A DNA stretch of 64,000 nt, from positions 1 to 64,000 of IMG/VR virus record IMGVR_UViG_3300031851_005926; one strand, 5' to 3'. Shown here piece by piece: positions 4,823 to 64,000 of this stretch (the stretch's first letter is position 1; each line of letters begins with the position of its first letter). The translations under genes and the position numbers were made by a program. Source of the DNA: a virus. The notes beneath the pieces were generated by a model, which was not told the origin of the DNA, did no database searches, and was given only the letters and a program-made list of their open reading frames with translations.

Positions 4823-4911
4823 AATTGTCAAATTTATACCCTTAAGACAGCTTGCACGACAACATCCCATATGTGTAAGATAATACTAAGTACTCATCAG
4901 AGGTGGTCACT

Positions 4912-6663
4912 GTGCATGAAATCCCTTTAACAATATTGTCAAAAGAAGAAGGTATTCCGATACCTAATAATCTTTTTAGATTTAGCCTTTCTCATGAAGC
5001 AGCTGCCAAGATGGAAACTGTTGAAGTAGAGCTTAGACCAGGTATAAAAGAAAAATTCTTTGCAATAGGTGTGTCTAACGATACATCTATTGCAATTGAA
5101 CTATGTGCTTCTGAAGAAGAAAAAAAAGATAACCTGAATCCAATAGGTGTAATCTGTATACTAAAAGCTGAAAAAGTTAGAGATTTTGACACTTTGGTCA
5201 AAGCAAAAATAGTCTGCAGAACTCACTTGAGGCAGCTTGCTTTAAAAAGAGAATCCTACTGGATACCTTTTGAGAAGATTAAAGAAGAGATCCTTCCTGG
5301 AGAAGAAGAATTAGTTAACGACTTATCAATTCTTATAAATTATATAATTGCTAACGAAAACATTTTCTCTCCAACTCTAAAAGCAAAAGTCAAAACTACT
5401 GACGATCTAATTAAAATTGCTAACGTGATAGTCAGTGACATACCACTAGATCATGAAGATCGATTAGAGTATCTTCAATATCAAAGTAATTTAGAAAGAA
5501 TCACTTTTGTAATAAGGCACTTATTTGTAATACTTGCCTCAATAAGAGCTGGTGACAATAATAGGAGTACAGCCACTATTAGGAGAAATATGACTCCCAG
5601 TGAAGCGGCCAGCATTATATACGCTGCCAATGCTGCTCACAACAACCCCTCTATTGAGAAGGAAACTAATTCATCTGTTTCCGCTCCAAAAGAAGTAAGG
5701 TCAAAAATAGAGAAGGAAAAGCAAAGACTCAAAGAGCTACCACCTTCTTCTCTTGAATATCAAACTATAAAAGAATACCTCGCTTGGCTTGAAGGCTTAC
5801 CTTGGGGCAATTTTTCTTACAAAGAGCCAGATCTTAAAAAATTCATATCTATATTAAATAAATCACACTACGGTCTTGACCAAGTTAAAGAATGTATTCT
5901 CGAACACATGGTAATAGAGAAACTATCAGACAATAGTAGAGGGTCAGTGATATGCTTTTTAGGCCCACCAGGTACTGGTAAAACCAGTATAGCAAAATCT
6001 ATAGCTGAAGCCACTAACAGAGAAATTATTAAAATTGCTCTTGGTGGAATGTCTGATGAAGCAGAATTAAGAGGTCACAGAAGAACTTATGTTGCATCTA
6101 GACCTGGTAGAATTATAGCTGGTTTAAAAAATTGTGGAACCTTTGACCCTATTGTACTACTCGACGAAGTAGACAAAATGGGGAATAGTAGAGGAGACCC
6201 TACAAGCGCTCTTCTTGAAATCTTAGATCCAGAACAAAATAATGAATTTATAGACAGATACATTGAGTCTCCAATAGACCTGTCTAAAGTTATGTTTATT
6301 TGTACTGCGAACTACGAAGAACAAATACCTCCAGCTCTAAAAGACAGATTTGAAATAATCTATTTTAGAGACTACGATTATGAAGAAAAGCTTGTTATTC
6401 TAGAAGAATTTTTAATTCCTGAAGTCAAAGCAGACTTTCATCTAGACAGCCATCCGATATCATTTTCTAGTGATACGCTTGCGCGCATCGCTTCTTTGGG
6501 AGGTATCAGAGATATAAAAAGAGGCGTTCAAAAACTACTAAGAAAAGCTGCAGTACAGATAGTCGTAAACGAACAAACTTCTGTTGAGATAACTCCAGAA
6601 GATGTAGAAAGCTTAAAAAAGAATAAAAACAAAACAAAAAATATTGGCTTTGGAGGCGATTAA
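4912..6663 (+). CDS. Lon-like AAA+ ATPase lacking the protease domain
   Basis: 583 aa from GTG 4912, chosen because AGAGGTGG lies at the right distance. Regions in order: Lon N-terminal-like domain (about 1-200), helical linker (about 260-345), AAA+ module with Walker A GPPGTGKT (351-358), Walker B VLLDEVDK (Asp418-Glu419), and sensor/arginine regions near 'TANYEEQIPPALKDRFEII' and 'GGIRDIKRGVQ'. It aligns with Lon as far as the end of the AAA+ lid and then stops, about 200 residues short, with no Ser-Lys peptidase domain; the next gene is unrelated. The C-terminus is a Lys/Asn-rich tail ending IGFGGD. It could be a stand-alone unfoldase, a partner of the phage ClpP at 43.2 kb, or a poison subunit for host Lon. 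Confidence 0.85.
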   Translation: MHEIPLTILSKEEGIPIPNNLFRFSLSHEAAAKMETVEVELRPGIKEKFFAIGVSNDTSIAIELCASEEEKKDNLNPIGVICILKAEKVRDFDTLVKAKIVCRTHLRQLALKRESYWIPFEKIKEEILPGEEELVNDLSILINYIIANENIFSPTLKAKVKTTDDLIKIANVIVSDIPLDHEDRLEYLQYQSNLERITFVIRHLFVILASIRAGDNNRSTATIRRNMTPSEAASIIYAANAAHNNPSIEKETNSSVSAPKEVRSKIEKEKQRLKELPPSSLEYQTIKEYLAWLEGLPWGNFSYKEPDLKKFISILNKSHYGLDQVKECILEHMVIEKLSDNSRGSVICFLGPPGTGKTSIAKSIAEATNREIIKIALGGMSDEAELRGHRRTYVASRPGRIIAGLKNCGTFDPIVLLDEVDKMGNSRGDPTSALLEILDPEQNNEFIDRYIESPIDLSKVMFICTANYEEQIPPALKDRFEIIYFRDYDYEEKLVILEEFLIPEVKADFHLDSHPISFSSDTLARIASLGGIRDIKRGVQKLLRKAAVQIVVNEQTSVEITPEDVESLKKNKNKTKNIGFGGD

Positions 6664-7561: not shown

Positions 7562-7837
7562 ATGGCTTACACACCTTACAACTCTACTGACACTACTACC
7601 CAAACCACTAACACTCGCTTGAATTACTCAGATTTTTCAGGAGAAGGCATTTCTAATGTGCCGGGATACCTGTATTACATCGCTATGGGTGACGGAAATA
7701 GAGCTCTTCCAGGCTTTGTCTTTATCTCGCGAGAAGATGCTCGCACAGCTCGTCGATCACTCTCTACGGCCCATCCTGGATCAAAGTTCAGAATGTATAG
7801 AGTTTCTGTTAGTTCGGAAATTGAAAAGACTTCTTAA
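7562..7837 (+). CDS. Hypothetical protein, YTPY N-terminus
   Basis: 91 aa. It starts MAYTPYNSTDTTTQT, a Thr-rich stretch, followed by a compact domain with 'FVFISREDARTARRSLSTAHPGSKFRMYRVSV'. RBS AGGAGAAAAA precedes the ATG. The leading Y-T-P-Y matches the repeated motif of the gene at 4160. It ends convergently with the serine protease gene (4-nt overlap). Function unknown. Confidence 0.65.
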   Translation: MAYTPYNSTDTTTQTTNTRLNYSDFSGEGISNVPGYLYYIAMGDGNRALPGFVFISREDARTARRSLSTAHPGSKFRMYRVSVSSEIEKTS

Positions 7838-8493
7838 AATAAGTCTAGTTCTGAGATAGGGACCACAAGAACAAAGTTTTCTTGGGTTCCTATCTCATTA
7901 ACTCTTATCGCAACAGTTATACCGACTAATTCACCTTTTGTATTAAATACTCCACCGCCACTAAAACCAGGCACACTGTAAGTATTTAATATATAAATTT
8001 TGCGACCATTAGCTTGTTCTACCCAAGCAAGAGTTCCTTTGACGACCATCGAGCTGTCTCCAAAGGCTCTACCTGCGGACCAAAGCTCATCCCCTATTGC
8101 AGGCTCTCTCCTTGAGATACGAGCCGCTCGAATTCCTTCTGGAAATTCTTCTACAAAGTAAGCAGCCCAATCCGTATCTAGCGAACTAGAAGAATCAGAA
8201 ATATAATTACTAATTCCTCTTATGCATTCATCATAAAAAGAACAAATATCAACAGGAAAAGGCAACGCAGCAGCAACATGCTCTGCTGTCAAGATTGCTT
8301 TCTTTCCGTTTATTTGTACAGCAATACCAGTCCCTATTCCAACTCCAGGCATTGGAGTAGGTGACAACCAAACGCTAGATTTTAAAATTTTACTTGGTAA
8401 CGGGCCTGTATTGATATCATAGTTCACGACAGGTGAACTGGCAGGTAAAAAACTTAGTGCTGAGCACAATGCAATTAATCTAAAATTACTCAT
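7834..8493 (-). CDS. Exported trypsin-like serine protease
   Basis: 219 aa. A hydrophobic signal-like segment (residues about 4-22) ends near ASS, so the protein is probably exported. The chymotrypsin-fold triad is complete: His in 'LTAEHVAA', Asp in 'SLDTDWAAY', Ser in 'GFSGGGVF'. No PDZ domain is present. It lies alone on the minus strand between plus-strand genes, directly upstream of and divergent from the ubiquitin-like cassette. Phages rarely carry secreted trypsin-like proteases; it could process virion or host envelope proteins. Confidence 0.8.
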   Translation of the reverse strand: MSNFRLIALCSALSFLPASSPVVNYDINTGPLPSKILKSSVWLSPTPMPGVGIGTGIAVQINGKKAILTAEHVAAALPFPVDICSFYDECIRGISNYISDSSSSLDTDWAAYFVEEFPEGIRAARISRREPAIGDELWSAGRAFGDSSMVVKGTLAWVEQANGRKIYILNTYSVPGFSGGGVFNTKGELVGITVAIRVNEIGTQENFVLVVPISELDLF

Positions 8494-8574: not shown

Positions 8575-8835
8575 ATGAAACTCATCTGTTTAAATCAAGA
8601 TGAATGTGGTCATATAGAAAAGCTTGAGTACATGTCTGATGAAGAGATTTCTAATTTCTCTGTTCCAGAAAATTTGATTTGCAGCCTATGCTGCTCTTTA
8701 GCATTACTCTACACCGATGACCATAAGCCAATTTTTTATAGCAATGATCATGATTTTTTAAATGAATCAAATGCACTCATTGCTTTAATTCACAATTTGA
8801 TAACCACACCTAAAGAAGGAGGCAGTGATGCCTGA
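8575..8835 (+). CDS. Small putative zinc-ribbon protein
   Basis: 86 aa. Cysteines at 'MKLICLNQDECGH' and 'LICSLCCSLALLY' could form a C-x5-C...C-x2-C zinc ribbon. It ends inside the next gene (8-nt overlap with ATG 8828), and its last codons contain that gene's RBS (AAGGAGG). It is therefore the first gene of the ubiquitin-like cassette transcript. A role as adaptor or substrate selector is only a guess from position. Confidence 0.55.
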   Translation: MKLICLNQDECGHIEKLEYMSDEEISNFSVPENLICSLCCSLALLYTDDHKPIFYSNDHDFLNESNALIALIHNLITTPKEGGSDA

Positions 8836-11638
8836 ATTAACAATCCAAGACCACGAAGGCTTGGAAGAAGCTCCAACGTCAGAAGAGAGTCAAGACGTTT
8901 TGGTTGAGCAAGATACAAACACCAATACGTCGATTGCTACAGATTGCTCTTTTGTTGTTGACAACAAAGCCTTTGCATACCTCAATGGAAATCGTCGCCC
9001 ATATATGCAATTGTTTAGTCGCTATAACAGTCTTCTTCGCCACTTTGACGAGCGTAGAGATAATTACAGATATTATTACAATACTCACGAAAGCCTTCGT
9101 AACGAAATTGATGGTATAGCAGCTAGCTTTGATGACGAATCCAATCAGTTTCTTCCAGAAGTCTTGAAATTTCTCTCCAAGAACTCATGCGGTCCTATTT
9201 ATTACTCTGGACCTTTAACAAACTTTACGTATGCTCATCATGGCAGCTTACAATCAACATACTCTTCTCACCTTATGGAAATTTCTTCAAGTAGAAATCT
9301 TGACCACTCAGTCTATAGCTCTCCAGATTATAGTTTTACAGAAGATGAGCGCTTTGTATTAATTGATCTTAATACAAAAATAAACGAAAAGAAAACTTAC
9401 TATGTATCAGAATACAATACCTACACTATAGATGGAGAGAAAGTATATTCAAAGATACCTCTTGAAATAATAAACCATATGGGAAAAATCTTTGATTTCA
9501 CTTCGTTAACATCTGCACCAAATTGCTCTGAATTTACTAGAACCTTTGCAAGAAAACAATCTGCTTCTAGTAGAAGTGATAAATTTCCTCAATGGAGAGG
9601 TCGTAGCTATTCGGTAGGAGAGATGTCAGACGTAGTATTTGCTGGACCAGAAACTATAATTCCTGGTACCTCAATTACATATGAGTCTGTATTAAGTTCT
9701 AACACTAGCATGATGAATATCAAAAACTTCTCTTCTGTATACAGAGGTTCAGGTGAAGTTCGTACTGACACTAGGTCAAGAAAAACTTCAGCACTTTTCT
9801 CTTCACCATGTTTTTTCTTATTTAAAATTAATTACAATATTCTAAATCAAAAAACTGGTGAAATTGAGAAAGCAACTTTTATCAATTCTATAGTTACTCT
9901 TCCAACTGAAAAAATCTTAAAATATAAAAGAGCTATTAACTTTATCCCTAGTTTCTTGAATAAGGTTTTCGCAGAAAAAGGAATCGGAATCATTGATCCA
10001 GAAGCTCATAGAAAAATGATTGCTGAAAAATTTGCTAATAACTTAGTTTATTGGGACAAGCTTTCTGAAATCTTTAGAGATCGATTAGAAAACCCAGATT
10101 TTGCAATGAGCAATGAAGATTTCAAAAGTAACAAACAAACAATTAATGACAATGATATTGATCATCTTTCAAAATATGCAATTGCTTTAAAAGATCCTAA
10201 TATCGCTGAGTATGACAGAGCAAAAGAAGCTTATAAAAATGTAAAAGAATCTGTTAGGAAAGCCAAAAATGACATAAGTTCTTCTACTTCGACTCTAGAT
10301 CATACTAAAACAAGAATAGAGAAGTATAAAGAACTAATTGAAGAGCTTGCAAAAGATCAAATCCACCTTGAAGGCAAAATAACTCAAGCTTCAACTACGG
10401 TTGAAGGCTATATGCCTGCGATTGAAGAACTTAGTTCCAAAATCAAAACACTTGAAAGTGCCAAAGAAGCTTCTTTTAAAAGAGTAATGGAAAGCGATAA
10501 TTCTGAAACTGGATCTTTCATTAAGAATATGGCTGAATCTGGAATCATCATTACTAAAATTGATTATTGCATACCAGCAATCCACGAAATATCCACAAGA
10601 TGGGGACTGGAAACTCAACTATCAGCTGCTTTTGCTAATGTTAATAAGTCAAATCCAGAAAATCCATGGATATTCTCTATTAAAGAATATCCCGAAATAG
10701 CACTTTATGCAAAAATGAAGAAAGAATTTCTTGTTGCAAAAGAAATAATTTTAGCTTTAAGAGATGAAGACACAGAAGGATCAGAAATAATTCAAGATAT
10801 ATCTAGCGAGTTATGGGAAAAGCTTCTTCTAGGATTCGTTCCAAAGATAGAATCAATCACCTTTCATACAAAAAAGCCAGTTATTATTAAAGTAGACTAT
10901 GCATTAAAAGGCGAAGATTGTACCAAGCGAGTCGCTGGTCCATACGAAGTCAAAGTGCATTACGCTCCCGACAGAATAGACCGCTATGAAAATTGTTGGA
11001 GAAACAGTAGTCAAACTGTGAACATTAGACTATGTTCTACTGATGCCGTATTTGGTCATGATCCAAATAATAGACAAATTTGGACTCACCCACATACTTC
11101 TTCAAGAAGTTACTCTGATGTATCTTGGAATAATTTTAAATCTACTCTTTCGCTTTGGACTAGTGGTTGCCTTGGAGATATTTCACCGACAATAAACTCT
11201 GCTTATCAAGATGGAGATGTTAAGGTTGCAATATTTGCTGCAATGACTTGGGTAACTTCTGCTAACTCAGTTGATACTTGGGGCAGAAACCACACTAAGT
11301 TTCCGCTTCTTTCTGAAGTCACTCTAGAAAAAGTAACGGAAATCTCAGAAGAAGAAAAGATTAACGAACATCTTCTCTCAACTGAAGAAGGTATGGAGGA
11401 TTCGATTTTAGATCTTATGGATACTCTTGATTTGCAACTCAGTACTGTAAACGTAGAAATACCAGAGCAACCAATTACAGAAGAACTTACTCAAGCTACA
11501 CCAACTGCTGTAATAAGTGAACCACAAATTCTTCCAAATATTAGAAGAATTGAAAGGCAACGTTTGTCCAGAAATCCTGGATACGTTTCTTATGCGCAAC
11601 TCACAACCCGAACCATCGAGGAAAACAATGAAGCCTAA
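8828..11638 (+). CDS. Large fusion protein with E2-like (UBC/RWD) C-terminal domain
   Basis: 936 aa from ATG 8828 (AAGGAGG upstream). Residues 1-40 are acidic; 40-430 are an unknown mixed domain; about 460-560 is a coiled coil; about 670-830 looks like an E2 fold: 'AGPYEVKVHY' strand, 'TVNIRLC' strand, 'WTHPHTSS' (His754-Pro-His756, matching the HPN/HPH motif) and 'TSGCLGD' with candidate catalytic Cys781, then a helix 'DVKVAIFAAMTWVTSAN'. The spacing from HPH to Cys (25 residues) is longer than in eukaryotic E2s. The tail (830-936) is acidic and flexible. It overlaps the JAMM gene by 11 nt. I infer it is the transfer enzyme of the cassette, perhaps with its target-binding region built in. 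The E2 call is by eye only. Confidence 0.6.
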   Translation: MPELTIQDHEGLEEAPTSEESQDVLVEQDTNTNTSIATDCSFVVDNKAFAYLNGNRRPYMQLFSRYNSLLRHFDERRDNYRYYYNTHESLRNEIDGIAASFDDESNQFLPEVLKFLSKNSCGPIYYSGPLTNFTYAHHGSLQSTYSSHLMEISSSRNLDHSVYSSPDYSFTEDERFVLIDLNTKINEKKTYYVSEYNTYTIDGEKVYSKIPLEIINHMGKIFDFTSLTSAPNCSEFTRTFARKQSASSRSDKFPQWRGRSYSVGEMSDVVFAGPETIIPGTSITYESVLSSNTSMMNIKNFSSVYRGSGEVRTDTRSRKTSALFSSPCFFLFKINYNILNQKTGEIEKATFINSIVTLPTEKILKYKRAINFIPSFLNKVFAEKGIGIIDPEAHRKMIAEKFANNLVYWDKLSEIFRDRLENPDFAMSNEDFKSNKQTINDNDIDHLSKYAIALKDPNIAEYDRAKEAYKNVKESVRKAKNDISSSTSTLDHTKTRIEKYKELIEELAKDQIHLEGKITQASTTVEGYMPAIEELSSKIKTLESAKEASFKRVMESDNSETGSFIKNMAESGIIITKIDYCIPAIHEISTRWGLETQLSAAFANVNKSNPENPWIFSIKEYPEIALYAKMKKEFLVAKEIILALRDEDTEGSEIIQDISSELWEKLLLGFVPKIESITFHTKKPVIIKVDYALKGEDCTKRVAGPYEVKVHYAPDRIDRYENCWRNSSQTVNIRLCSTDAVFGHDPNNRQIWTHPHTSSRSYSDVSWNNFKSTLSLWTSGCLGDISPTINSAYQDGDVKVAIFAAMTWVTSANSVDTWGRNHTKFPLLSEVTLEKVTEISEEEKINEHLLSTEEGMEDSILDLMDTLDLQLSTVNVEIPEQPITEELTQATPTAVISEPQILPNIRRIERQRLSRNPGYVSYAQLTTRTIEENNEA

Positions 11639-12815
11639 TGGTGAATTTAAAATCTTAAATAAAAAGATATACCTACAGATATCTTATGAAGACCTTTCTG
11701 CTATTAGACATATAGTCGACATAGCTCCAAAAGAAGCACAATGGTTTCATAGGCTTAAAAGAATCTCTGAAACAGAAGCTCATACTGTCTATAAAATATA
11801 CGAAATGTATATCCCAGAACAATATTGTTCTGGAGCCGAAGTAGAATCTAATCCTGAGATGATGATCAAGTTCTATAGAGAACTAGTATCTGATCATGGA
11901 AATGACAAAGCTAACGACATACTCTCTGATCTAACTGTATGGTGCCATTCTCATCACAACATGGGCGTAAATCCATCAGGTCAAGACCAGAAGCAATTTA
12001 AAGAGCTTATTAAAAACGGTCAAGAATCGAAAGTCGATCTTCCCCAAGTAATGCTTATCTTTAATAAAAAAGATATGTTCTATTCTAAAATATGGGACCC
12101 CGAAACAGGAATCCTCTCTGAGAATGTTCCAATTCTTGTAGAGACTCCCAACTTTGATCATATTGATGAGCAAGCTAAAGCTAAATTTAAAAAGAAGCCA
12201 GCACCAAAGCGTACATTGTCACTTGGTGCAACCAAGAGCTATGGCAATCAAGGCTTTTTAGACTGGCCAGGCACATCTGGAGGTTACTTGTCACAAACTA
12301 CGGCAGCCAATGCGAAGGCTGGACGTAGTAAAAAAAAAAGAAACAAACAAGCAAGCCTACGCCCCGTATCAAGTTCAAATAAAAAAGTAACTTCTAGAAA
12401 GATCACTCAATACCGTGACGAAGTAACAGAGCTTGCAGAAGACTGCATGATGAGCAACAACTGCGGAACTGCTGTAGACAGTCTTATGAAATGCTTAATG
12501 CAAATTTGTGACCTTAAAGAACTTTGCGTCATGGACTTGTTGCTTAATGGAACAGACTTTGAAATACAAGAATTAAAATTAACAACTTTATATTATGACG
12601 ATGACGACTACATGGATTCTCAAATCAACATGCATGAATTGCTTATAGATGCAGTTCTGCCAGCGCCAATAATAAGCTTAGCTTTTGAAGTTGCAGTAGC
12701 TTTGCAAACTGCTGAGACAATAGATGAAGCTTCTGCTTTAATTGACTTTTGGCTAGACGCTTACGCGTCTGCTTTCGGTGGAATTTCAACTGAAACGGAG
12801 CTACCAGCTCTATAG
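11628..12815 (+). CDS. JAMM/JAB metallo-isopeptidase (deubiquitinase-like)
   Basis: 395 aa from ATG 11628, with GAGG 7 nt upstream. It carries a textbook JAMM site: Glu36 in 'KEAQWF', then His107-Ser-His109, seven residues, Ser117, two residues, Asp120. These are the zinc ligands and catalytic Glu of Rpn11/AMSH/JAB peptidases, which cut isopeptide or peptide bonds after the Gly end of ubiquitin-like proteins. After residue about 200 come a basic linker (KKKRNKQ) and a helical C-terminal domain of unknown role (about 260-395). It lies between the E2-like fusion and the E1 genes, so it probably matures the modifier and/or removes it from targets. Confidence 0.88.
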   Translation: MKPNGEFKILNKKIYLQISYEDLSAIRHIVDIAPKEAQWFHRLKRISETEAHTVYKIYEMYIPEQYCSGAEVESNPEMMIKFYRELVSDHGNDKANDILSDLTVWCHSHHNMGVNPSGQDQKQFKELIKNGQESKVDLPQVMLIFNKKDMFYSKIWDPETGILSENVPILVETPNFDHIDEQAKAKFKKKPAPKRTLSLGATKSYGNQGFLDWPGTSGGYLSQTTAANAKAGRSKKKRNKQASLRPVSSSNKKVTSRKITQYRDEVTELAEDCMMSNNCGTAVDSLMKCLMQICDLKELCVMDLLLNGTDFEIQELKLTTLYYDDDDYMDSQINMHELLIDAVLPAPIISLAFEVAVALQTAETIDEASALIDFWLDAYASAFGGISTETELPAL

Positions 12816-12823
12816 GAGGCACT

Positions 12824-13507
12824 ATGTCATCACCAAGCTTCCTTAGGCATGCCGGATGGTTCGGTCCCGAAGATGCTAAAACACTTAACATCGTCGGGGT
12901 CGGAGCAACCGGAAGTCATATAGGACTTTATGCAGCAAAAATGGGTTTTCATAATTTTCGCGTCTGGGACGCTGATATTGTAGAAAGCCATAATCTGCCA
13001 AATCAAATATACGATACTGAACACATAGGCATGAGAAAAGTAGACGCTTTTAAAGCAGTACTACAAAGATTCAATCCAGAAGTTAAGGTTGAAACTCATG
13101 ACTACTTTTTTGATAGCTCTCATAAAGATTTATTAAATGGGCCGATGGTTCTTACAGTAGACACTATGTCTGCAAGAAAAGAATCTCTTTCCACTTTTAA
13201 ACTAAACTACAAAGTTAACAATGTTTTTGAAACAAGACTTGGCTTTGACTTTGGAGAGCTAAACATTATTGACAATATGAATGTAAACGAAGCTGACTCA
13301 TGGTTTTCTTGTTTAAGAAGTGATTCTGAACTTGAAGAAGGACCATGCAATCTTCGAATTTGTACAACACTAGTTTCAATGGTTTCGAGCTATACAGTGC
13401 ATTGTATTTGCGCAATGCTATCTTCGCGAAGAAAAGGAACAAGTTGGGAGTATAGTAAAAAAACTCTTTTCAACTTGGATCCAAAGATAACCACTCACTC
13501 TATTTAG
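12824..13507 (+). CDS. ThiF/E1-like ubiquitin-activating enzyme homolog
   Basis: 227 aa, a minimal E1-type Rossmann adenylyltransferase. The nucleotide loop is G25-V-G27-A-T-G30; 'VWDADIVESHNLPNQ' gives the Asp49/Asp51 and Asn57/Gln61 positions; 'GMRKVDA' holds the ATP-binding Lys72; 'VDTMSARK' holds the Mg-binding Asp113. Cys residues at 'FSCLRSD', 'GPCNLRICTT' and 'VHCICAM' are candidates for a thioester or zinc. The Arg usual in N-x-N-R-Q is replaced (N-L-P-N-Q). It has its own strong RBS (TAGGAGG) 8 nt after the JAMM stop. It should adenylate the C-terminus of the beta-grasp protein encoded immediately downstream. Confidence 0.87.
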   Translation: MSSPSFLRHAGWFGPEDAKTLNIVGVGATGSHIGLYAAKMGFHNFRVWDADIVESHNLPNQIYDTEHIGMRKVDAFKAVLQRFNPEVKVETHDYFFDSSHKDLLNGPMVLTVDTMSARKESLSTFKLNYKVNNVFETRLGFDFGELNIIDNMNVNEADSWFSCLRSDSELEEGPCNLRICTTLVSMVSSYTVHCICAMLSSRRKGTSWEYSKKTLFNLDPKITTHSI

Positions 13508-13515
13508 GAAAAAAA

Positions 13516-13734
13516 ATGCGAAACATCACTCTCGTTCGTGTACCAGGCCCAGGTGCCTCATCCGTTCAGGTTGCCGAAGGCACCACACTTGCTCAGTTTG
13601 CAGCTGACAATAGCCTTAATGGCCGACAGCTTATTGTTGACGGCGAAGGTGTAGCCCCAACTGCTTGGGCTGCTACCACTCTTGATGGTGCTACAGAAGT
13701 ATTCGCTACTGGCGCCGTTAAGGGCAACCAGTAA
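13516..13734 (+). CDS. Ubiquitin-like beta-grasp modifier (ThiS/MoaD-like)
   Basis: 72 aa. The pattern 'SSVQVAEGTTLAQFAADNSL' (strand, turn, helix), 'RQLIVDGEGV' and 'TTLDGATEVFATGAVKG' matches the ThiS/MoaD/ubiquitin-like beta-grasp order, with the usual L-x-D-G before the last strand. The chain ends VKGNQ rather than GG, so removal of the final Asn-Gln would expose a Gly for activation. Codon use is strikingly C/G-rich, as in ssb, and a strong terminator follows 30 nt downstream, both pointing to abundant product. It is the last gene of the E2-JAMM-E1-modifier cassette. Confidence 0.75.
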   Translation: MRNITLVRVPGPGASSVQVAEGTTLAQFAADNSLNGRQLIVDGEGVAPTAWAATTLDGATEVFATGAVKGNQ

Positions 13735-13763
13735 CAATAAAAACTAGGCTTTAGCCAATGTTT

Positions 13764-13794
13764 AGGAGAACCCCGTTTGGGGTTCTCCTTTTTT
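13764..13794 (+). terminator. Strong terminator closing the conjugation cassette
   Basis: An 11-bp perfect stem AGGAGAACCCC/GGGGTTCTCCT with a GTTT loop is followed by six T residues. It ends the transcript right after the ubiquitin-like gene. Confidence 0.93.
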
Positions 13795-46119: not shown

Positions 46120-46293
46120 TTAATCTGAATTTAAATCATAGGCTAGAAGCATCAAAGCAGCAGAACCAATATTTATTAAAGCCATATTTAGTGAGCCAAG
46201 AGCAAGGCTGAACGCTAACAACCCTAAATTAAGACCCGACAATATAAGAAACAATTCTTTATATTTTTTTAAAAAATTAAATAGCTTGTTCAA
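46120..46293 (-). CDS. 57-aa small membrane protein
   Basis: TTG start at 46293 (AAGG about 8 nt upstream), overlapping the stop of the thioredoxin-like gene, with TAA at 46120-46122. The product begins MNKLFNFLKKYKELF and has two hydrophobic helices (about 14-35 and 37-51), ending AYDLNSD. It is the last gene of the minus-strand block. Function unknown. Confidence 0.5.
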   Translation of the reverse strand: MNKLFNFLKKYKELFLILSGLNLGLLAFSLALGSLNMALINIGSAALMLLAYDLNSD

Positions 46294-46855
46294 TTGCTTG
46301 CCTTATCATAGCTTCATTAAAACCACGCAATGTAGTGAGCACTTTCCCCTCTCTATCTACAAGTATAAAAGTTGGCCAACTTTCAACAGGGAAGCCATTC
46401 AAACTTCCACCAGAAACTAAAAGGCTCCTATCTCCAGCAAGTACTGGAGCACTTGTGATCCCGAAAGATTCTGTCCAAACTTTCAAGTCTTCTGCTTCAA
46501 CAGAATCGTTTGCTAAGTCAGCAATAAGCAAAGTAACATATTGAAAACCAGAACCTTGATAATGATCTTGAGTTTCCTGCGTAGTCTGACCAGCAGCTTG
46601 ACATGGCCCACACCACATCGCTGAAAGGTCTAATAATAAAACCTCTCCTTTGTAATCAGAAAGCCTCCACATTTCATCTTCGCTATCAAGCAAAATAAAA
46701 TCGCACGCCTTCTCTCCATCTGCAAAACCACAGTCTTCTGTTTCAATGAAACCTGGTTCGTAAACCAAGTCTTCAATGCTTGCAGAATCTGAAGAATCTA
46801 GAATCGGACTACAGGCTGTAAGCTGTGCTAAAAATATTGTATGTAAAATTTTCAT
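46277..46855 (-). CDS. Thioredoxin-fold (TlpA-like) lipoprotein
   Basis: 192 aa. An N-terminal signal with a lipobox-like 'QLTAC' (Cys15) marks it as an exported lipoprotein. The thioredoxin fold contains 'LLLDLSAMWCGPCQAAGQ' (WCGPC redox pair) and the cis-Pro region 'ESWPTFILVDREG'. It reduces or rearranges disulfides in the periplasm. Its ATG overlaps the stop of the vWA lipoprotein (4 nt), so both are co-translated; the vWA protein contains several Cys that could be clients. Confidence 0.82.
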   Translation of the reverse strand: MKILHTIFLAQLTACSPILDSSDSASIEDLVYEPGFIETEDCGFADGEKACDFILLDSEDEMWRLSDYKGEVLLLDLSAMWCGPCQAAGQTTQETQDHYQGSGFQYVTLLIADLANDSVEAEDLKVWTESFGITSAPVLAGDRSLLVSGGSLNGFPVESWPTFILVDREGKVLTTLRGFNEAMIRQAIEQAI

Positions 46856-47847
46856 TGTCCTGTATCCCCTGTATCTGCATTAGATACAGTTTTTTCATAA
46901 TGGTAAGCTATTTCTACTAAAGTTGAAGCTGGCGGAATTACTGTAAAGTAAACTCTATTTTCAGTCGAATCATAATAGAAGTCATAATTTGGAACTCCAT
47001 CAATAAACACAACTATTGAGCCACCATTAACTACTGGATAAGTGAGGTCCCAATACTCATGAGGCTCGACTTGGTTCGAAGCATCAGCAACTCCAGCTGA
47101 CCAATCTGGTGAACAAATATCTACAATGATCCCACCGAAGTAATTAGTAGCATCAATGTATCTATCACCTATGTTTTGAGCTGAAGGAGGTGGACTGCAA
47201 ACTGAATCTGCTTGTGTAACGTTGATAATAGAAGATATAAAAGTAGATCCGCCCCTCAAAGAACCATACCAGTTTGTAAAGTCTGGAACCTGAAGCATGT
47301 ACTGGTTGCTTTGCTCTTCCTCGTCGGAAACAAAAACAACTAATAAGGCAGCATCATCTCTCATCCAAGTTTGAGCATACGAATTGTTTACAACGTATTC
47401 GTATGTAGCATCAAACCCTTCTTCCATGCCTCCTCTTAACATCGCTTCATACATCGCTACAGCATCTTCAACCGTATCCCCAGGAACCAATGGAAACTGA
47501 GCTTCCTGTAATGCTTTGGAAGGATCATTAGAGGTCATAGCTAATCGCCAGCCAGTTGGAGGCAGAGCGTTCATCATCGCTTCAATGCCTGCAATCAGCT
47601 CATCTGAATAACGATTCATAGAGCCTGAAGTATCTATAACCCATAGAATGTCAACTCCGTCAACACTTCGAGGTTGGATAAAATTGTCTACCCATATTTC
47701 TCCGTACTCTTCAGACGGTATCTCTACATAAACTGTTTCTCCTGGAACCTCGACGTATACGGTCTCAGTATTAGGATAGCGAGCAGTTATACTATAATCG
47801 CTGCATCCTCCCATGAAGATTAGCAAACAAAAAAATAAATACCTCAT
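46852..47847 (-). CDS. von Willebrand factor A-domain lipoprotein
   Basis: 331 aa. Signal peptide with lipobox-like 'FMGGC' (Cys15), repeated Val-Tyr-Val-Glu linker, then a vWA domain with MIDAS 'WVIDTSGSM' and 'VVFVSDEEEQ'. The C-terminal part is beta-rich and ends 'NADTGDTGQ', a DTG repeat typical of surface lipoproteins in some delta-proteobacterial-type genomes. TAGGAGATTG precedes the ATG. Placed on the cell surface or periplasm during infection; it may bind a ligand or block superinfection. Confidence 0.8.
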   Translation of the reverse strand: MRYLFFCLLIFMGGCSDYSITARYPNTETVYVEVPGETVYVEIPSEEYGEIWVDNFIQPRSVDGVDILWVIDTSGSMNRYSDELIAGIEAMMNALPPTGWRLAMTSNDPSKALQEAQFPLVPGDTVEDAVAMYEAMLRGGMEEGFDATYEYVVNNSYAQTWMRDDAALLVVFVSDEEEQSNQYMLQVPDFTNWYGSLRGGSTFISSIINVTQADSVCSPPPSAQNIGDRYIDATNYFGGIIVDICSPDWSAGVADASNQVEPHEYWDLTYPVVNGGSIVVFIDGVPNYDFYYDSTENRVYFTVIPPASTLVEIAYHYEKTVSNADTGDTGQ

Positions 47848-47953
47848 TACAATCTCCTAAGGCTAAGTACATAAAAATCTTAACACCTAGGCAATACAGA
47901 AGTACAGCCTACTTTAAAAAAACATAGTATCTCTAAACTGCAAAGCCATAAGA

Positions 47954-47983
47954 TTGCAAATAAAACTTCCGATTAGTTATAAT
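47954..47983 (+). promoter_or_regulatory. Sigma70-type promoter for the OmpA-vWA gene
   Basis: TTGCAA (47954-47959), an 18-nt spacer and a perfect TATAAT (47978-47983) lie 17 nt before the ATG at 48000. It is the best two-box promoter I see in the window, and the plus-strand gene it serves is isolated. Confidence 0.6.
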
Positions 47984-47999
47984 CTGTGAAGGTGACAAT

Positions 48000-48860
48000 A
48001 TGATTTTATGGAAAAATAAGGCAAGAATTCTTTTTGCCATGCTAATAATTCCTATCTTAGGATTAAGTGGGCATACTGGGAAAAGTGCTAGAGCAAGCAC
48101 GCCAATCGAAAGATGTACAGTTAGAGACTGTACGTGCAGAGTTATTCCTCAACGCGCAAGTGGAACTAGAACTATATCCACTACAGGATACAACTCTTCA
48201 TCAATAATGTTTGCAGAAGACGAGCACGCATTAGACGATGAGGATAAGGAAACTATCAAAGACTTTCTGCAGCAGAACCCCTCATCTCAAATCAGTCTCA
48301 TTGGCTATACGGATGGATGTGGAACGCACTCTTACAATCTGGGTTTAGCATCTAGAAGATGCAACAATGCCAGGAGTTTTATAAGATCGGAAACTAGAGG
48401 TAGATCTGCCAGAGTAGAAGTTGCTGGAGAAAAAGTAGAAGGGCACTTGCCAGAAGCAAGAAGAGTCGACTTAATTGCAGGAACAGTTACTGATATTCAA
48501 GTTAGTCTTCAATCAATACCTGCAGACGTATACTTGGTAGATGGTTCAGCCTCTATGGGTAATAGACATTTTCAACATTGGACAGATGTCATATCTACTT
48601 CATTTAGTCGCAACAGTCGAGTATATGTATCTATGATGACTGGCTGCAGAAACGGCCAAACTCTAAACTCTGTTTCACCTCAAAATGGAACAGAGATCTG
48701 GTACTCATATTTTTGGGTCATCGACCGAATGAGACCAGGAGAAACCCTATTAATAATCTCTGATTTTCAATCTAACGTGCCATTGCATCCTTATGAAGCA
48801 AGAATGATAGAGCAGAAAGTCCAAGAAGCAGGTATTAAAGTTTACGCAATAACGCTCTAG
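48000..48860 (+). CDS. OmpA-like peptidoglycan-binding / vWA fusion protein
   Basis: 286 aa. Signal peptide (residues about 8-33, ending ARA). Residues about 65-155 are an OmpA-C domain: 'IMFAEDEHALDDEDKETI', 'SLIGYTDGCGTHSYNLGLASRRCNNARSFI' and 'EARRVDLI', the peptidoglycan-binding pattern (D...R). Residues about 170-286 are a vWA-like domain with 'YLVDGSASMG' (MIDAS). This two-domain order is unusual. It is the only plus-strand gene in the last 18 kb, with its own promoter, between the exported-protein genes and the glycan genes. Confidence 0.78.
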   Translation: MILWKNKARILFAMLIIPILGLSGHTGKSARASTPIERCTVRDCTCRVIPQRASGTRTISTTGYNSSSIMFAEDEHALDDEDKETIKDFLQQNPSSQISLIGYTDGCGTHSYNLGLASRRCNNARSFIRSETRGRSARVEVAGEKVEGHLPEARRVDLIAGTVTDIQVSLQSIPADVYLVDGSASMGNRHFQHWTDVISTSFSRNSRVYVSMMTGCRNGQTLNSVSPQNGTEIWYSYFWVIDRMRPGETLLIISDFQSNVPLHPYEARMIEQKVQEAGIKVYAITL

Positions 48861-49534
48861 AGAATATAAGAGCTAGCTTTACCTTCTACATAATCTATGT
48901 ATGGAGCTCTTCTTGTTCTTAAGAATTCTGTTGGGTTCTTAGCTCTGTCATGATCCCAGCTATCGCCACTATGAATTCCATAAGCTCCTAGGTGGTCTAA
49001 GTAGCTAGTTCTTGTTACTAGGAACTCCTTTTTTAAGAGCTGTGGGAATTTATAGTCCCAACCATCTTTCTTATCGATGTTTTTTGCACGCTCTAAGATA
49101 TCTTCAATCATCTCTCTAGTGTAAAAATGAGAGATCCCTCCGCTCCACTTTCTCTTAAAAGTCTCTTTCTTCGAAATGAAAGCATTGCAATCACTTGTGT
49201 AAAGTGAAATTGGATTACCTTTTGGCAATCCTTTTAAAACGTTTAGAAAGTTTGGATCGTGAAAAGAATCTGAATCTGTAAGATAAATGTATTTAAAGTC
49301 AGACTCAATAAAATCATGTAATTGCTTCCAGCGTATACCATGAACACCTAAGTTTTTATGTCCCATGACTAGCTTATCAGCATAACCGGCTAAAAATTCA
49401 GGACCAAATTCAGTAGAGCAATCATCGTAAACCCACAAAGTGCTATTTTGTTTATACTTGCTAAGGTTTGATAGCGATATTTCTACCGTTCTTTTCCTAT
49501 TATAAACTGGAACTACAATAACTAAGTCTTTCAT
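48857..49534 (-). CDS. Family-2-type glycosyltransferase
   Basis: 225 aa, GT-A fold: 'VIVVPVYNRKRTVEISLSNL', 'WVYDDCST', and the metal-binding 'YLTDSDSFHD' (DxD), then 'YTSDCNAFISK'. It transfers a sugar from a nucleotide donor onto a glycan or virion protein. Last gene of the glycan cluster; its start overlaps the methyltransferase stop. Confidence 0.8.
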   Translation of the reverse strand: MKDLVIVVPVYNRKRTVEISLSNLSKYKQNSTLWVYDDCSTEFGPEFLAGYADKLVMGHKNLGVHGIRWKQLHDFIESDFKYIYLTDSDSFHDPNFLNVLKGLPKGNPISLYTSDCNAFISKKETFKRKWSGGISHFYTREMIEDILERAKNIDKKDGWDYKFPQLLKKEFLVTRTSYLDHLGAYGIHSGDSWDHDRAKNPTEFLRTRRAPYIDYVEGKASSYIL

Positions 49535-50103
49535 TTAGACTTTAATCTGCCTAAAAAATAAATGTTCTTTCCTATCACCTTGGTGTTCAAGTCCCATTCT
49601 TTAAACTGGCTTTTGAACTCTTCTTCATTTTTATAAACTTGCAAATGAGCGACATAGGGAAAATTTAATGGAACGGTACCAATTATACAATTAGATATTT
49701 TTGCTAAACCCTTTGACAGTCTTTGAGGATTTTGCAAGTGCTCTATGACTTCTGTCATCAACACATAGTCAAACTTTCCCCATTTCTTTGTATCGTATGA
49801 TTCGATATACTCGTAACAATTCATACAGAAGTAATTTATGTCTCTCGTATTAGCTCTAGCTTTTTTTATTCTTTCTTTTGAGAAATCTACTCCAAAAGGT
49901 CTAGCGCCCAAATCTTCTTTTAAGTAGGTCGAAAACCTTCCGTCCCCACAACCCAGATCGAGTACTTTTCTTTTATCAAAATCAATCTCTGGAAACCGAG
50001 CAAAGAACTTCTCAACATCTACTGACCCATAATCTGGATTACTGTCATAATGCTTTAACAAAGCTTCTTCTTTCTTGTATAAACCCTCCTTATACTTTCC
50101 CAT
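49531..50103 (-). CDS. SAM-dependent methyltransferase
   Basis: 190 aa, class I fold: motif I 'VLDLGCGDGRFS', 'FGVDFSKERIKKA', motif IV-like 'FDYVLMTEVIEHLQNP'. In this glycan cluster it most likely methylates a sugar. Overlaps both neighbours (14 nt with the sulfotransferase). Confidence 0.82.
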   Translation of the reverse strand: MGKYKEGLYKKEEALLKHYDSNPDYGSVDVEKFFARFPEIDFDKRKVLDLGCGDGRFSTYLKEDLGARPFGVDFSKERIKKARANTRDINYFCMNCYEYIESYDTKKWGKFDYVLMTEVIEHLQNPQRLSKGLAKISNCIIGTVPLNFPYVAHLQVYKNEEEFKSQFKEWDLNTKVIGKNIYFLGRLKSK

Positions 50104-50839
50104 AATTTAAAACCTCCTTATAATAATCGTTGTCAATCCAGCCTATATTATACTTTTCTCTAAGAGAGAATTCCACTTCTTTGAAAGAATCAATTTCTTT
50201 TTGAGAATATATAGTCTTTTTAGTATTCTTATTTTTATATAAAGGTCGATTATTAAAAGATCTAGTTTTAATTCCTAATTCGTTAAAAACTCTTTCTACA
50301 GTCACCTTCGGACTTTTTGTCAACTCTTCAAAAGTAATATAAGAGACATGATCAAACAGATCTTTATTTACCCAAAATCTATGTTCATGTTCAAACCAGT
50401 CTAAAAATATTTTTTCTAAATTGCTCATTGAGCTCCACTCTTCACTTGTCACTCTCAAGAGAGTGTCTTCATCGAAAGGTGGTCTTACCCAGGGACTGTT
50501 TCCTGGAATTTCTTTCCTATTCAATTTTGAGACCGCCACCTCTATTGGATTTCTTACAAGTTTTATTACTTTAAGATTTGGCATCTCTTCTAATGCATAC
50601 TTGTAGAAGCCCCTCATAAATTGGTGAGCTGTATCAATATAGAAAGGATTCTTTTTTATCTCCAATGCTTTGGTAGACAAAGCTTTAGAAGCCGTCCCAT
50701 TTCTATTAGCTTCTATCAAAAGTTTTCCAGCGACTATTGGTCTTTCTTCGTGGTTTGCAGAAATGTAAGTATAATTCTTGAAACAAGAAGCTAAGAAACC
50801 TGTACCACATCTTCCAGAGGAAGCAACAAAGATATGCAT
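50090..50839 (-). CDS. Sulfotransferase-family protein
   Basis: 249 aa. PAPS-binding loop 'VASSGRCGTGFLA' and the 3'-phosphate site 'VIKLVRNPIEVAVSKLNR' are clear; the family moves sulfate from PAPS to sugars or proteins. Here it probably sulfates a glycan on the phage or host surface. Unusual in phages. Confidence 0.78.
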   Translation of the reverse strand: MHIFVASSGRCGTGFLASCFKNYTYISANHEERPIVAGKLLIEANRNGTASKALSTKALEIKKNPFYIDTAHQFMRGFYKYALEEMPNLKVIKLVRNPIEVAVSKLNRKEIPGNSPWVRPPFDEDTLLRVTSEEWSSMSNLEKIFLDWFEHEHRFWVNKDLFDHVSYITFEELTKSPKVTVERVFNELGIKTRSFNNRPLYKNKNTKKTIYSQKEIDSFKEVEFSLREKYNIGWIDNDYYKEVLNYGKV

Positions 50840-50841
50840 AA

Positions 50842-51555
50842 TTATCTCACAAAATTATCTGATTGTTGCCTTTTGTGACTTTTAGCAATCACAGAGTAAC
50901 CGACTTGGTGTTGTACATAATGCTTATTTGTGCAATAAAAATTAAATCCATTTTGTTCAAAAACATTTCCAAGCTTTATATCCCATCCAGCATAGTTGTT
51001 ATTCCAAACATCATGCCTATGATTGTACCACCAGTTCATAGTTTTTGGAGAGAAAGCAACGGCTAAGTTGCCGTAATAACCTTTTCCATCAAACTTGTAG
51101 ATTGGATGCTTTGCTTTATTATTTTTTGATGGCCAATAGCATTGGCCACTACCATAAAAAGTAACTATATCTACTACAGGATAGTTTCGAAATTGTTTTT
51201 CAACCTCATTTACAGCGTATTCAAATCTACTGGAAAATTCAATATCATCTTCTAAAAATAAAACAGTCTCTTTTTTATAAATAGCACTTTGAGCAATTAT
51301 TTTTGGAAACTCCCAAATAGCCTTATAGTCTATTGTATTAGAATAAGCGCCAAACTGTTTGGATGGAAAAACTCCTTGCTTTATCTTCTCAATAGGATTC
51401 ATAGAATCTATAAGTTTATGATATTCTTTGTTATCACCATCGTAGTAAACGATTGGTCGAGCTAAAGAACCCTTTGCATACTTATTGTAAGACTTGACAA
51501 ACCTTTTGAAGGTTTTCATTCTTTTATCGCATGTACATATGAAAGGTCTTATCAT
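50842..51555 (-). CDS. GT-A-type glycosyltransferase
   Basis: 237 aa. 'IRPFICTCDKRMKTFKRFVKSY' resembles the donor-binding start of GT-A enzymes and 'VLFLEDDIEFSSRF' carries an acidic DxD-like metal site; later 'GYYGNLAVAFSPKTMNWWYN' and a C-terminal HxxGYS. Likely adds a sugar in the same pathway. Donor unknown. Confidence 0.65.
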   Translation of the reverse strand: MIRPFICTCDKRMKTFKRFVKSYNKYAKGSLARPIVYYDGDNKEYHKLIDSMNPIEKIKQGVFPSKQFGAYSNTIDYKAIWEFPKIIAQSAIYKKETVLFLEDDIEFSSRFEYAVNEVEKQFRNYPVVDIVTFYGSGQCYWPSKNNKAKHPIYKFDGKGYYGNLAVAFSPKTMNWWYNHRHDVWNNNYAGWDIKLGNVFEQNGFNFYCTNKHYVQHQVGYSVIAKSHKRQQSDNFVR

Positions 51556-51556
51556 C

Positions 51557-51781
51557 TTAACTCAAGGGCTCTTCTTCGATAGACTGGATTCTTTCTTCAA
51601 GACCCTCTACAACGGTGCTGACAGCCTCTAGCTCGGTTTGTACTACAACTAGTAGCTCGTGTACCTGGTTGACACTAGCAAGCCTCCCCATAGCTACTAG
51701 AGCGTCGTTAATGGTTGTTTCGATAGCAGTTATTCTGCTCATAAGATTTATATACTTTTGTTCTGTAAATGACCAAGCCAT
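51557..51781 (-). CDS. Small coiled-coil protein
   Basis: 74 aa, acidic coiled coil (NQVHELLVVVQTELEAVSTV) with a Trp-containing start MAWSFTEQKY. It sits between the glycosyltransferase and a membrane-anchored coiled-coil gene. Function unknown; may pair with the neighbour. Confidence 0.55.
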   Translation of the reverse strand: MAWSFTEQKYINLMSRITAIETTINDALVAMGRLASVNQVHELLVVVQTELEAVSTVVEGLEERIQSIEEEPLS

Positions 51782-51789
51782 TATTCACC

Positions 51790-52143
51790 TCAATTAAAAG
51801 CTAGTTCTACTAGCTGTGCTAAACCAGCAACAAGGCCACCGCCTAAGCCACCATAAACAAGCTTTTCAGCCATTGTAATTCTTACACTCACTACATCTTT
51901 TTCTAATGTAGTGATCTTATCTTCAAGAGCTTTTATCTTTTCATTAGACTGCACGAGCGCTTGAGAAACAAGCGCTTGCTTTTCTTTTGTTTCAGTGTAT
52001 CTGTCCAGAAGTATATCTATCTTCTTTGACAGCTGATCAAGAGATTCATCTAACTTAGTCTCTATCGTACCTAGTCTATAAGTCATTAAGCTTAACTCTG
52101 ATTTTAAAGTTGACAATTCCGTGTTAAGTGCTTCATCAGACAT
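51790..52143 (-). CDS. Coiled-coil protein with C-terminal membrane helix (XhlA-like)
   Basis: 117 aa from ATG 52143. A long charged coiled coil (about residues 5-90) ends in a hydrophobic helix 'LVYGGLGGGLVAGLAQLVELAF'. The same layout occurs in XhlA-like holin accessory proteins. Cell-lysis function is possible, not shown. Confidence 0.55.
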   Translation of the reverse strand: MSDEALNTELSTLKSELSLMTYRLGTIETKLDESLDQLSKKIDILLDRYTETKEKQALVSQALVQSNEKIKALEDKITTLEKDVVSVRITMAEKLVYGGLGGGLVAGLAQLVELAFN

Positions 52144-52148
52144 GATAA

Positions 52149-52565
52149 TCAATCCTTTGTACAGTCTTCTATTTTAGACATCATGCCTTCAATCTTGTTA
52201 CAAAAGTTATTAACTTTCGAAGTACTTTTTTGCATCTTATCTAAATAGCCTTCAAGAATATCTAAATCTGAAGCATGGAAAGCTTTGTCGTCTATATAGA
52301 CTTCAGCATTAGGCTTGCCAAAATAAATCTCATCGTAAATAAAATCCCAAGACTCCAGCTGGTTTAAAGTTAGTTTACCAATAGAAGCAATAGTAGCACC
52401 GACATTAGAAGAGTTGGTACCCATGCCCCTGGCAGTATGTATTATAATTACATAACCTTTTTCTTTCAATCTTATTAATAATTCTTTTGCGCCTCTTAGT
52501 GGAACTGCCTCTTCATAAGGTTTCCCAGAACAAAGGGTGTTGTCAAGATCAAAACAAATTCTCAT
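52149..52565 (-). CDS. HAD-family phosphatase
   Basis: 138 aa. 'ICFDLDNTLC' (nucleophile Asp and D-x-D-x-T), 'VIIIHTARGMGT' (Thr/Ser motif II) and 'AEVYIDDKAF' (acidic motif IV) define a small HAD phosphatase, as found beside LPS and capsule genes. In this context it could act as the GmhB-type heptose bisphosphatase that lies between HldE kinase and adenylyltransferase steps. Substrate is inferred only. Confidence 0.8.
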   Translation of the reverse strand: MRICFDLDNTLCSGKPYEEAVPLRGAKELLIRLKEKGYVIIIHTARGMGTNSSNVGATIASIGKLTLNQLESWDFIYDEIYFGKPNAEVYIDDKAFHASDLDILEGYLDKMQKSTSKVNNFCNKIEGMMSKIEDCTKD

Positions 52566-52588
52566 AGTATCCTCATTATACTATATAA

Positions 52589-53641: not shown

Positions 53642-53656
53642 TTAGCTTCCTTGAAC

Positions 53657-63993: not shown

Positions 63994-64000
63994 ATTCGTT

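Follow-up and report, generated by a model that had tools for sequence, protein, structure and literature searches.

A candidate ubiquitin-like conjugation and deconjugation cassette among the replication genes of a phage lineage

Ubiquitin-like (Ubl) conjugation in bacteria has so far been discussed mainly as antiphage defence, and bacterial operons of this kind have antiphage activity (PMC10097602, PMC11354881). In the Bil system (BilABCD), the peptidase BilC processes BilA, a protein with two Ubl domains (PMC11354881). The bacterial polyUbl operons of type 6e encode a tandem Ubl of 2-3 units, an activating enzyme (E1), a JAB peptidase, a protein related to conjugating enzymes (E2/RWD-like) and a small metal-binding protein, and their E2 folds are inactive and RWD-like (PMC1779556). 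A phage-encoded pair of Ubl and JAB is described in Lambda/T1 phages as TAPI-TAPK (PMC1779556). No phage cassette of E1, E2, JAMM and Ubl was found described in the open-access papers searched. Here, a block of genes with such parts is reported from a phage, IMG/VR record IMGVR_UViG_3300031851_005926 (65.8 kb). The window is the stretch analysed, positions 1 to 64,000 of this record. The block encodes an 86-amino-acid (aa) protein, a 936-aa protein with an E2-like candidate domain, a JAMM/JAB metallopeptidase, a ThiF/E1-type enzyme and a 72-aa modifier (Table 1). It is best explained as a Ubl conjugation and deconjugation system owned by the phage, with a probability of about 0.68.

Synteny of the block extends to 14 more distinct phages, which came to light when viral contigs were scanned for homologues of its E1, JAMM, 936-aa protein and modifier. 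Records of 158-162 kb are among them. Together with the window they form a set of 15 phages, from which three near-duplicate contigs are left out. The JAMM, the E1, the modifier and the HPH/CLG domain of the 936-aa protein are present in 15 of 15 phages, and the order is invariable: 936-aa-type protein, JAMM, E1, modifier or modifiers. In the window, these four genes share one strand and are spaced by -11, 8 and 8 nucleotides (nt). The 86-aa gene, which has the same orientation and overlaps the beginning of the 936-aa gene, is the fifth member of the block and is kept in most relatives. The hairpin that closes the block (13764-13789) has a folding free energy of -21.2 kcal/mol (z -4.66), and a terminator-like hairpin is seen by eye at the equivalent site in four relatives (L001, L002, L007 and L008). 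An earlier note on the window had described four co-oriented genes that overlap or lie 8 nt apart, a strong terminator after the modifier gene and a position within phage replication genes. All three points are confirmed, and the same gene order recurs in the related phages.

Identity to the relatives is 25-36% for the 936-aa protein, as against 65-82% for the E1. Over the 14 further phages, E1 identity is about 46-82% where measured. Between the window and L001, nonsynonymous (Ka) and synonymous (Ks) divergence is 0.096 and 1.11 for the modifier, 0.39 and 2.76 for the JAMM, and 0.69 and 2.75 for the 936-aa protein. For the E1, Ka is 0.16 and Ks is saturated. This combination of synteny and purifying selection supports a cassette that is core, not accessory.

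In composition, the cassette is best read as closest to the type 6e polyUbl operons. As in these operons, a tandem Ubl (2, 3 or 4 units in 6 of the 15 phages), an E1 and a JAB are found in one operon. The 86-aa protein with its four conserved cysteines is a candidate counterpart of the small metal-binding protein. Unlike type 6e, the JAMM and the E1 are separate ORFs (open reading frames) in all relatives, and the genes lie in phage core genomes. The E2-like candidate is large and has an invariant cysteine. The modifiers also differ, as monomers occur with 2-4-mers, the tail is KGN and there is no match to a Pfam poly-ubiquitin family.

The cassette fails on defining features of Bil, CBASS and PRTRC and is assigned to none of the three. 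As in Bil, a Ubl, an E2 (here a candidate), a JAMM peptidase and an E1 are encoded together. However, BilD combines two adenylation domains, one inactive and one active, with a Cys domain, whereas the window E1 is a single domain of 227 aa. The motif of BilB is CEHH, the window protein has HPH and CLG, and the cassette is phage-encoded. Tandem Ubls, which in Bil are ISG15-like and processed by the JAMM, occur here in the relatives only. Type II CBASS, with the E1-E2 fusion Cap2 and the JAB Cap3, shares the E1 and JAMM chemistry and a similar E1 adenylation segment. Unlike CBASS, the cassette has a dedicated Ubl and no E1-E2 fusion, and no CD-NTase was identified. The PRTRC plasmid gene group likewise co-encodes ThiF, JAB and E2-like proteins, but the window E1 scores 17.6 bits against PRTRC_ThiF (cut-off 144.75) and the E2-like domain reaches an hhalign probability of 0.17% with Prok-E2_D. 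Unlike ThiF/ThiS thiamine systems, the window has no identified ThiG or ThiH and the modifier tail is KGN, not GG. The TAPI-TAPK pair differs in that these are tail assembly proteins without an E1 or E2.

The E1 matches Pfam ThiF (2.3e-19). Across 13 homologues, GxGATGS, DxDxVE-HNLPNQ, K72, D113 and A117-R118 are conserved. The expected features of the E1 superfamily (GxGxxG, DxD, the lysine, the predicted Mg-site aspartate and the position of the putative catalytic cysteine) are all present and invariant. Cys175 is the sole invariant cysteine of the 13 E1s and is also conserved in the E1s of crAss-like and Flavobacterium phages. In a profile search of the PDB, the adenylation half matches PaaA, UBA5, MccB, TcdA, ThiF and the NEDD8 E1. 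In PADLOC, the best matches are CBASS E1-E2 models (3.8e-14, adenylation part only). Judged from its sequence, the E1 is minimal, single-domain and non-fused.

The JAMM signature is exact (E36...H107-S-H109-x7-S117-x2-D120), and E36, H107, H109, S117 and D120 are invariant in 13 homologues. The peptidase domain covers about residues 1-200 and is followed by a lysine-rich linker and an acidic, helical C-terminal part. In L002 and L003, the acidic C-terminal half is a separate ORF. The protein matches JAB in PADLOC (1.4e-4), and a profile search of PDB sequences gave nothing useful.

The AlphaFold model of the modifier has a pLDDT (predicted local distance difference test) of 90.8, a strand-strand-helix-strand-strand-strand order and a disordered tail. 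In Foldseek searches of the PDB, its matches are mostly ubiquitins, with ThiS also among them, at probability 1.00, template modelling scores of 0.6-0.7 and a best E of 5e-3. The predicted structure combines a ubiquitin fold with a free C-terminal tail, as in a beta-grasp Ubl. The monomer has no match in Pfam or to any other family, and the profile search of PDB sequences gave nothing useful. The earlier note had assigned a minimal ThiF/E1, a JAMM with a perfect E...HxH-x7-S-x2-D site and a 72-aa beta-grasp modifier, and each of these identities is borne out.

The window modifier is a monomer, and head-to-tail poly-modifiers of 2-4 units occur in 6 of the 15 phages. There are three tandem units in L011 and L037, each with a separate monomer, and two in L042, L043 and L069. 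In L044, four tandem units are followed by an unrelated 94-aa domain. Modifiers with C-terminal extensions are present in L039, L041, L043, L068 and L069, most of which share an RPSGGGRGNN-type tail. These poly-modifiers and fusions are new in this analysis. The repeat unit is M1-N71, and FATG[AS]VKGN ends 37 of 38 Ubl units (three of the 38 are from a near-duplicate contig). The sole exception to the KGN tail is in L037, where a 68-aa degenerate Ubl (L037:11142-11348) lies between the intact mono- and tri-Ubl genes. The residue after the asparagine is a stop or Q, R, S, A, T, N, M, V, K, G or I, and thus the asparagine is invariant whether it is terminal or not. The tripled L037 homologue matches OTU1_UBXL (1.3e-7), ThiS (2.9e-4) and SAMP2 (8.7e-4) in Pfam as summed whole-protein scores. 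All are Ubl families, and no Pfam poly-ubiquitin family is matched. In the 161-kb relative (G005), the modifier gene comes 4th among 139 ORFs when these are ordered by similarity of codon usage to the head and sheath genes, which is consistent with an abundant product. The 94-aa domain after the fourth Ubl of L044 (L044:11782-12933) resembles by eye a free 102-aa protein of L011 (L011:10817-11125; HGHxPYSGTI), hinting at a ubiquitin-fusion gene.

Poly-Ubl and fusion precursors need a processing peptidase, which fits the adjoining JAMM. They are unneeded by sulfur carriers and strengthen the case for a true modifier. A sulfur carrier is nevertheless another way to read the genes. The modifier would then be a ThiS/MoaD-like thiocarboxylate for tRNA, cofactor or cysteine synthesis, released by the JAMM as in CysO/Mec. 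The Rossmann part of the E1 is ThiF-like, the modifier weakly resembles ThiS (E 0.014 in a small set) and its GN aligns by eye with the GG of ThiS. This reading is very improbable, since a catalytic carrier would have no use for tandem and fused forms, the modifier lacks Gly-Gly, and the HPH/Cys protein and the zinc-ribbon gene are left unexplained. Among the window proteins examined, a part of all ORFs, there is no rhodanese, sulfurtransferase, ThiG/ThiH, MoaE or cysteine synthase, and no thiamine or molybdopterin pathway was identified; the earlier note had named a complete pathway of this kind nearby, together with E1 similarity to sulfur-carrier enzymes only, as counting against its reading. 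In a light search for a bacterial source, a genome scan with the E1 as query has a single match (L045), an ordinary thiamine operon unlike the window. The modifier profile has no match in 398 genomes of one phylum, in a search without a positive control.

The 936-aa protein has a divergent N-terminal part, a coiled coil at about residues 455-556, the C-terminal candidate domain and an acidic C-terminal tail. In alignments of 7 and 13 homologues, GP, HPH, CLG, W, NSxDxWG and FP are invariant within the candidate domain. Cys781 is its only invariant cysteine among the 13 homologues, so that the E1 and the E2-like domain have one invariant cysteine each. HPH, CLG and the WG motif are also present, with slight alterations, in the compact versions of L068 and L069. 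In Pfam, NCBIfam and PHROGs, the 936-aa protein has coiled-coil matches only. A PHROG match to 'minor head protein' (3.9e-6) is put down to the coiled coil and rejected. The AlphaFold model of the domain (pLDDT 76, from a 7-sequence alignment) has insertions. Against a viral library, it matches one uncultured-phage protein (1146 aa, 26% identity, 6e-13) and nameless viral proteins.

In the preferred reading, a phage-owned conjugation system, the modifier would be made in quantity. The JAMM would trim its precursors, which are the poly-Ubls and fusions in the relatives and the form with a terminal Q in the window, probably by cleavage at the KGN tail. The E1 would adenylate the C-terminal tail and then hold the modifier on Cys175 as a thioester. 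From there, the modifier may pass to Cys781 of the 936-aa protein, acting as an E2 or a combined E2/E3. The N-terminal and coiled-coil part of that protein would select targets, for which its fast-evolving N-terminal part is a natural candidate. The targets are presumably proteins of host or phage that matter for replication or takeover during infection, with host defence proteins, other host proteins and virion proteins as candidates, and the JAMM would also remove the tag from them. The 86-aa protein is possibly an adaptor for a target or partner. Its four cysteines are conserved in L001, L002 and L003, homologues are also present in L007, L008, L011, L042 and L043, and no Pfam or PHROG family is above cut-off.

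The E1-like enzyme MccB acts on a C-terminal asparagine. Either of two mature ends of the modifier would fit the alignments. The JAMM may cut between KG and N and leave a glycine, or the asparagine may be the terminus at the place of the last glycine of ThiS. The activity of MccB makes the second option chemically conceivable. The SG motif in the Ubls of crAss-like and Flavobacterium phages points to a glycine end by the KG/N cut.

Several results weigh against a full conjugation pathway of this kind. Over its first 100 residues, the E1 is matched best by ThiF (NF006395, 68.6 bits, cut-off 159). The match of the JAMM to Prok-JAB (E 0.016) is under the curated Pfam cut-off, and the modifier ends in GN(Q), without GG. 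The model of the E2-like domain, which is of moderate confidence, has no E2/UBC match in the PDB above noise. Comparisons of hidden Markov models with Prok-E2_B and Prok-E2_D, run with controls, are at noise level, and the comparison with the crAss-like counterpart reaches an hhalign probability of 3.6%, a motif-level likeness slightly above controls. The earlier note had named a structure prediction lacking a UBC/RWD fold in the 936-aa protein as counting against its reading, and its E2 assignment does not pass this check. The E2-like end stands as a conserved domain with HPH and CLG, and not as a recognisable UBC fold. The E2 role, suggested by position and motifs, is the weak link of the scheme.

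Conjugation could also proceed in two steps without a true E2. The E1, JAMM and modifier would then form a SAMP/Urm1-like tag, and the 936-aa protein would be a scaffold, receptor or main substrate with another role for its Cys/HPH site, for example zinc binding or RWD-like binding. The missing UBC and Prok-E2 matches and the coiled-coil architecture agree with this, as do the inactive RWD-like E2 folds of type 6e operons (PMC1779556). It is unlikely given that the cysteine and HPH are invariant in 15 of 15 phages and that a comparably placed HxH..CxG protein is present in crAss-like and Flavobacterium phages.

Eight records contain an HxH/CxG protein, a JAMM and a ThiF: five Steigviridae, two gut phages (classified as Caudoviricetes only) and Flavobacterium phage Fpv3. 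In these crAss-like and Flavobacterium phages, the order is (Ubl candidate), HxH..CxG protein, JAMM, E1. The Ubl candidate, which has a C-terminal extension, is usually first and is not identified in cr106_1. The crAss-like E1 is certainly homologous to the window E1, judged by profile alignment (hhalign 99.7%). The JAMMs align with a probability of 75% over 124 columns. The arrangement HxH ... C-x-G ... (E/N)S recurs in the protein directly before the JAMM. A pairwise comparison shows homology between the Ubl candidates of cr85_1 and Fpv3 (28%, 3e-9). The gut-phage loci are flanked by primase and uracil-DNA glycosylase (UDG) genes, and the neighbours in DAC15 are annotated as hypothetical only. 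These loci differ from the window in the long Ubl extension after the SG motif, the smaller E2-like protein and an extra gene after the E1, to which the JAMM C-terminal part has no relation. Their Ubl and E2-like protein are too divergent from those of the window for profile proof. Existing annotations are 'thiamine biosynthesis', 'metalloprotease domain', 'E1 enzyme family' or hypothetical, and no description of the loci as a Ubl system was found in the open-access papers searched. In the crAss-like Ubl candidates of L005, L059 and L061-L064, the extension is roughly 130-200 aa and SAP-like by eye.

That the cassette keeps its location within the replication genes speaks for a function in the phage's own cycle rather than for accessory defence. 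This accords with the earlier note, which had proposed a phage tool and not a host defence and is supported here by a syntenic core block under purifying selection. The same chemistry could serve a phage-carried defence against superinfecting competitors, related to Bil or CBASS. The closeness of the E1 to CBASS models and the antiphage action of bacterial Ubl operons (PMC10097602, PMC11354881) would fit. That purpose is quite improbable, as defence islands are sporadic and the site among replication genes is fixed in 15 divergent phages. The crAss-like counterparts lie among primase and UDG genes, and no CD-NTase or effector was identified nearby.

If the preferred reading of a phage-owned system holds, phage core genomes contain a complete version that is under strong conservation and apparently well expressed, which would mean that phages use Ubl chemistry too. 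It suggests that some phages run their own Ubl signalling during infection. The cassette offers a candidate for a new E2 class and an unusual modifier C-terminus, and the cultured crAss-like phages are a concrete test system for a role of prokaryotic Ubl tagging in infection. A bolder proposal is that this phage clade, the crAss-like phages and the Flavobacterium phages have a core Ubl pathway whose 'polyubiquitin' is virus-specific and whose E2 is of a new kind, and that the E1 of the clade activates a C-terminal asparagine (mature modifier Gly-Asn). This is tentative and rather doubtful.

Table 1. Positions in the window of the genes, sites and terminator of the block.
Feature	Position	Strand	Remark
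86-aa protein	8575..8835	+	zinc-ribbon-like C-x5-C ... C-x2-C; first gene of block
936-aa protein	8828..11638	+	alternative start GTG at 8825
E2-like candidate domain	10829..11314	+	residues 668-829 of 936-aa protein
HPH motif	11087..11095	+	residues 754-756 of 936-aa protein
Cys781 of CLG motif	11168..11170	+	proposed thioester acceptor in 936-aa protein
JAMM/JAB metallopeptidase, 395 aa	11628..12815	+	start ATG 11628
JAMM zinc site H107-S-H109-x7-S117-x2-D120	11946..11987	+	catalytic Glu E36 at 11733-11735
Minimal ThiF/E1-type activating enzyme, 227 aa	12824..13507	+	Pfam ThiF
E1 Cys175 (GPCNLR)	13346..13348	+	proposed catalytic Cys, 62 residues past Mg-site Asp113
Ubiquitin-like modifier, 72 aa	13516..13734	+	beta-grasp; C-terminus FATGAVKGN-Q
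Modifier tail FATGAVKGN, residues 63-71	13702..13728	+	unit boundary in poly-Ubl precursors
Intrinsic terminator	13764..13794	+	11-bp stem, GTTT loop, T-run; closes block

The window phage encodes PhoH, ribonucleotide reductase (RNR), UvsX, a split DNA polymerase and a primase-helicase. The syntenic 161-kb relative contains genes for the large terminase (TerL), portal, major head protein, tail sheath and baseplate, which indicate a lineage of contractile-tailed phages (myophages). This lineage is distant from annotated phages: the terminase is matched in just 4 of 50,697 records, and in tblastn searches of the same number of annotated phages the 936-aa protein and the modifier have no match and the JAMM has one weak match.

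Upstream of the cassette, a Lon-like AAA+ protein (4903-6663, + strand) lacks the Lon protease domain. Its LON substrate-binding and AAA domains are at or near significance, and the lid match is weak. In a mini degradation pathway, the tag would route proteins to this unfoldase, which is syntenic with the cassette in close relatives. It is absent from the 158-kb and 162-kb cassette carriers and no partner peptidase was identified, so that such a pathway is hardly probable. As these two large relatives have the cassette without the unfoldase, it is rejected as an obligate partner.

Directly before the cassette, on the opposite strand, lies a trypsin-like serine protease with a hydrophobic N-terminus (7834-8493, - strand), which is kept in L001, L002, L003 and L008. 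At the other end of the window (46277-64000, - strand), GT2 and GT9 glycosyltransferases, a sulfotransferase and a methyltransferase are found beside unannotated proteins of 617-1113 aa. A virion surface decorated with glycan or sulfate is possible. In the 161-kb relative (L025-L026; contig 55151-59332 and 61613-72714), the RNR product is 1393 aa, versus 710 aa in the window, and extra ORFs interrupt both the UvsX-like gene and the DNA polymerase gene. This suggests inteins or homing elements in three core genes.

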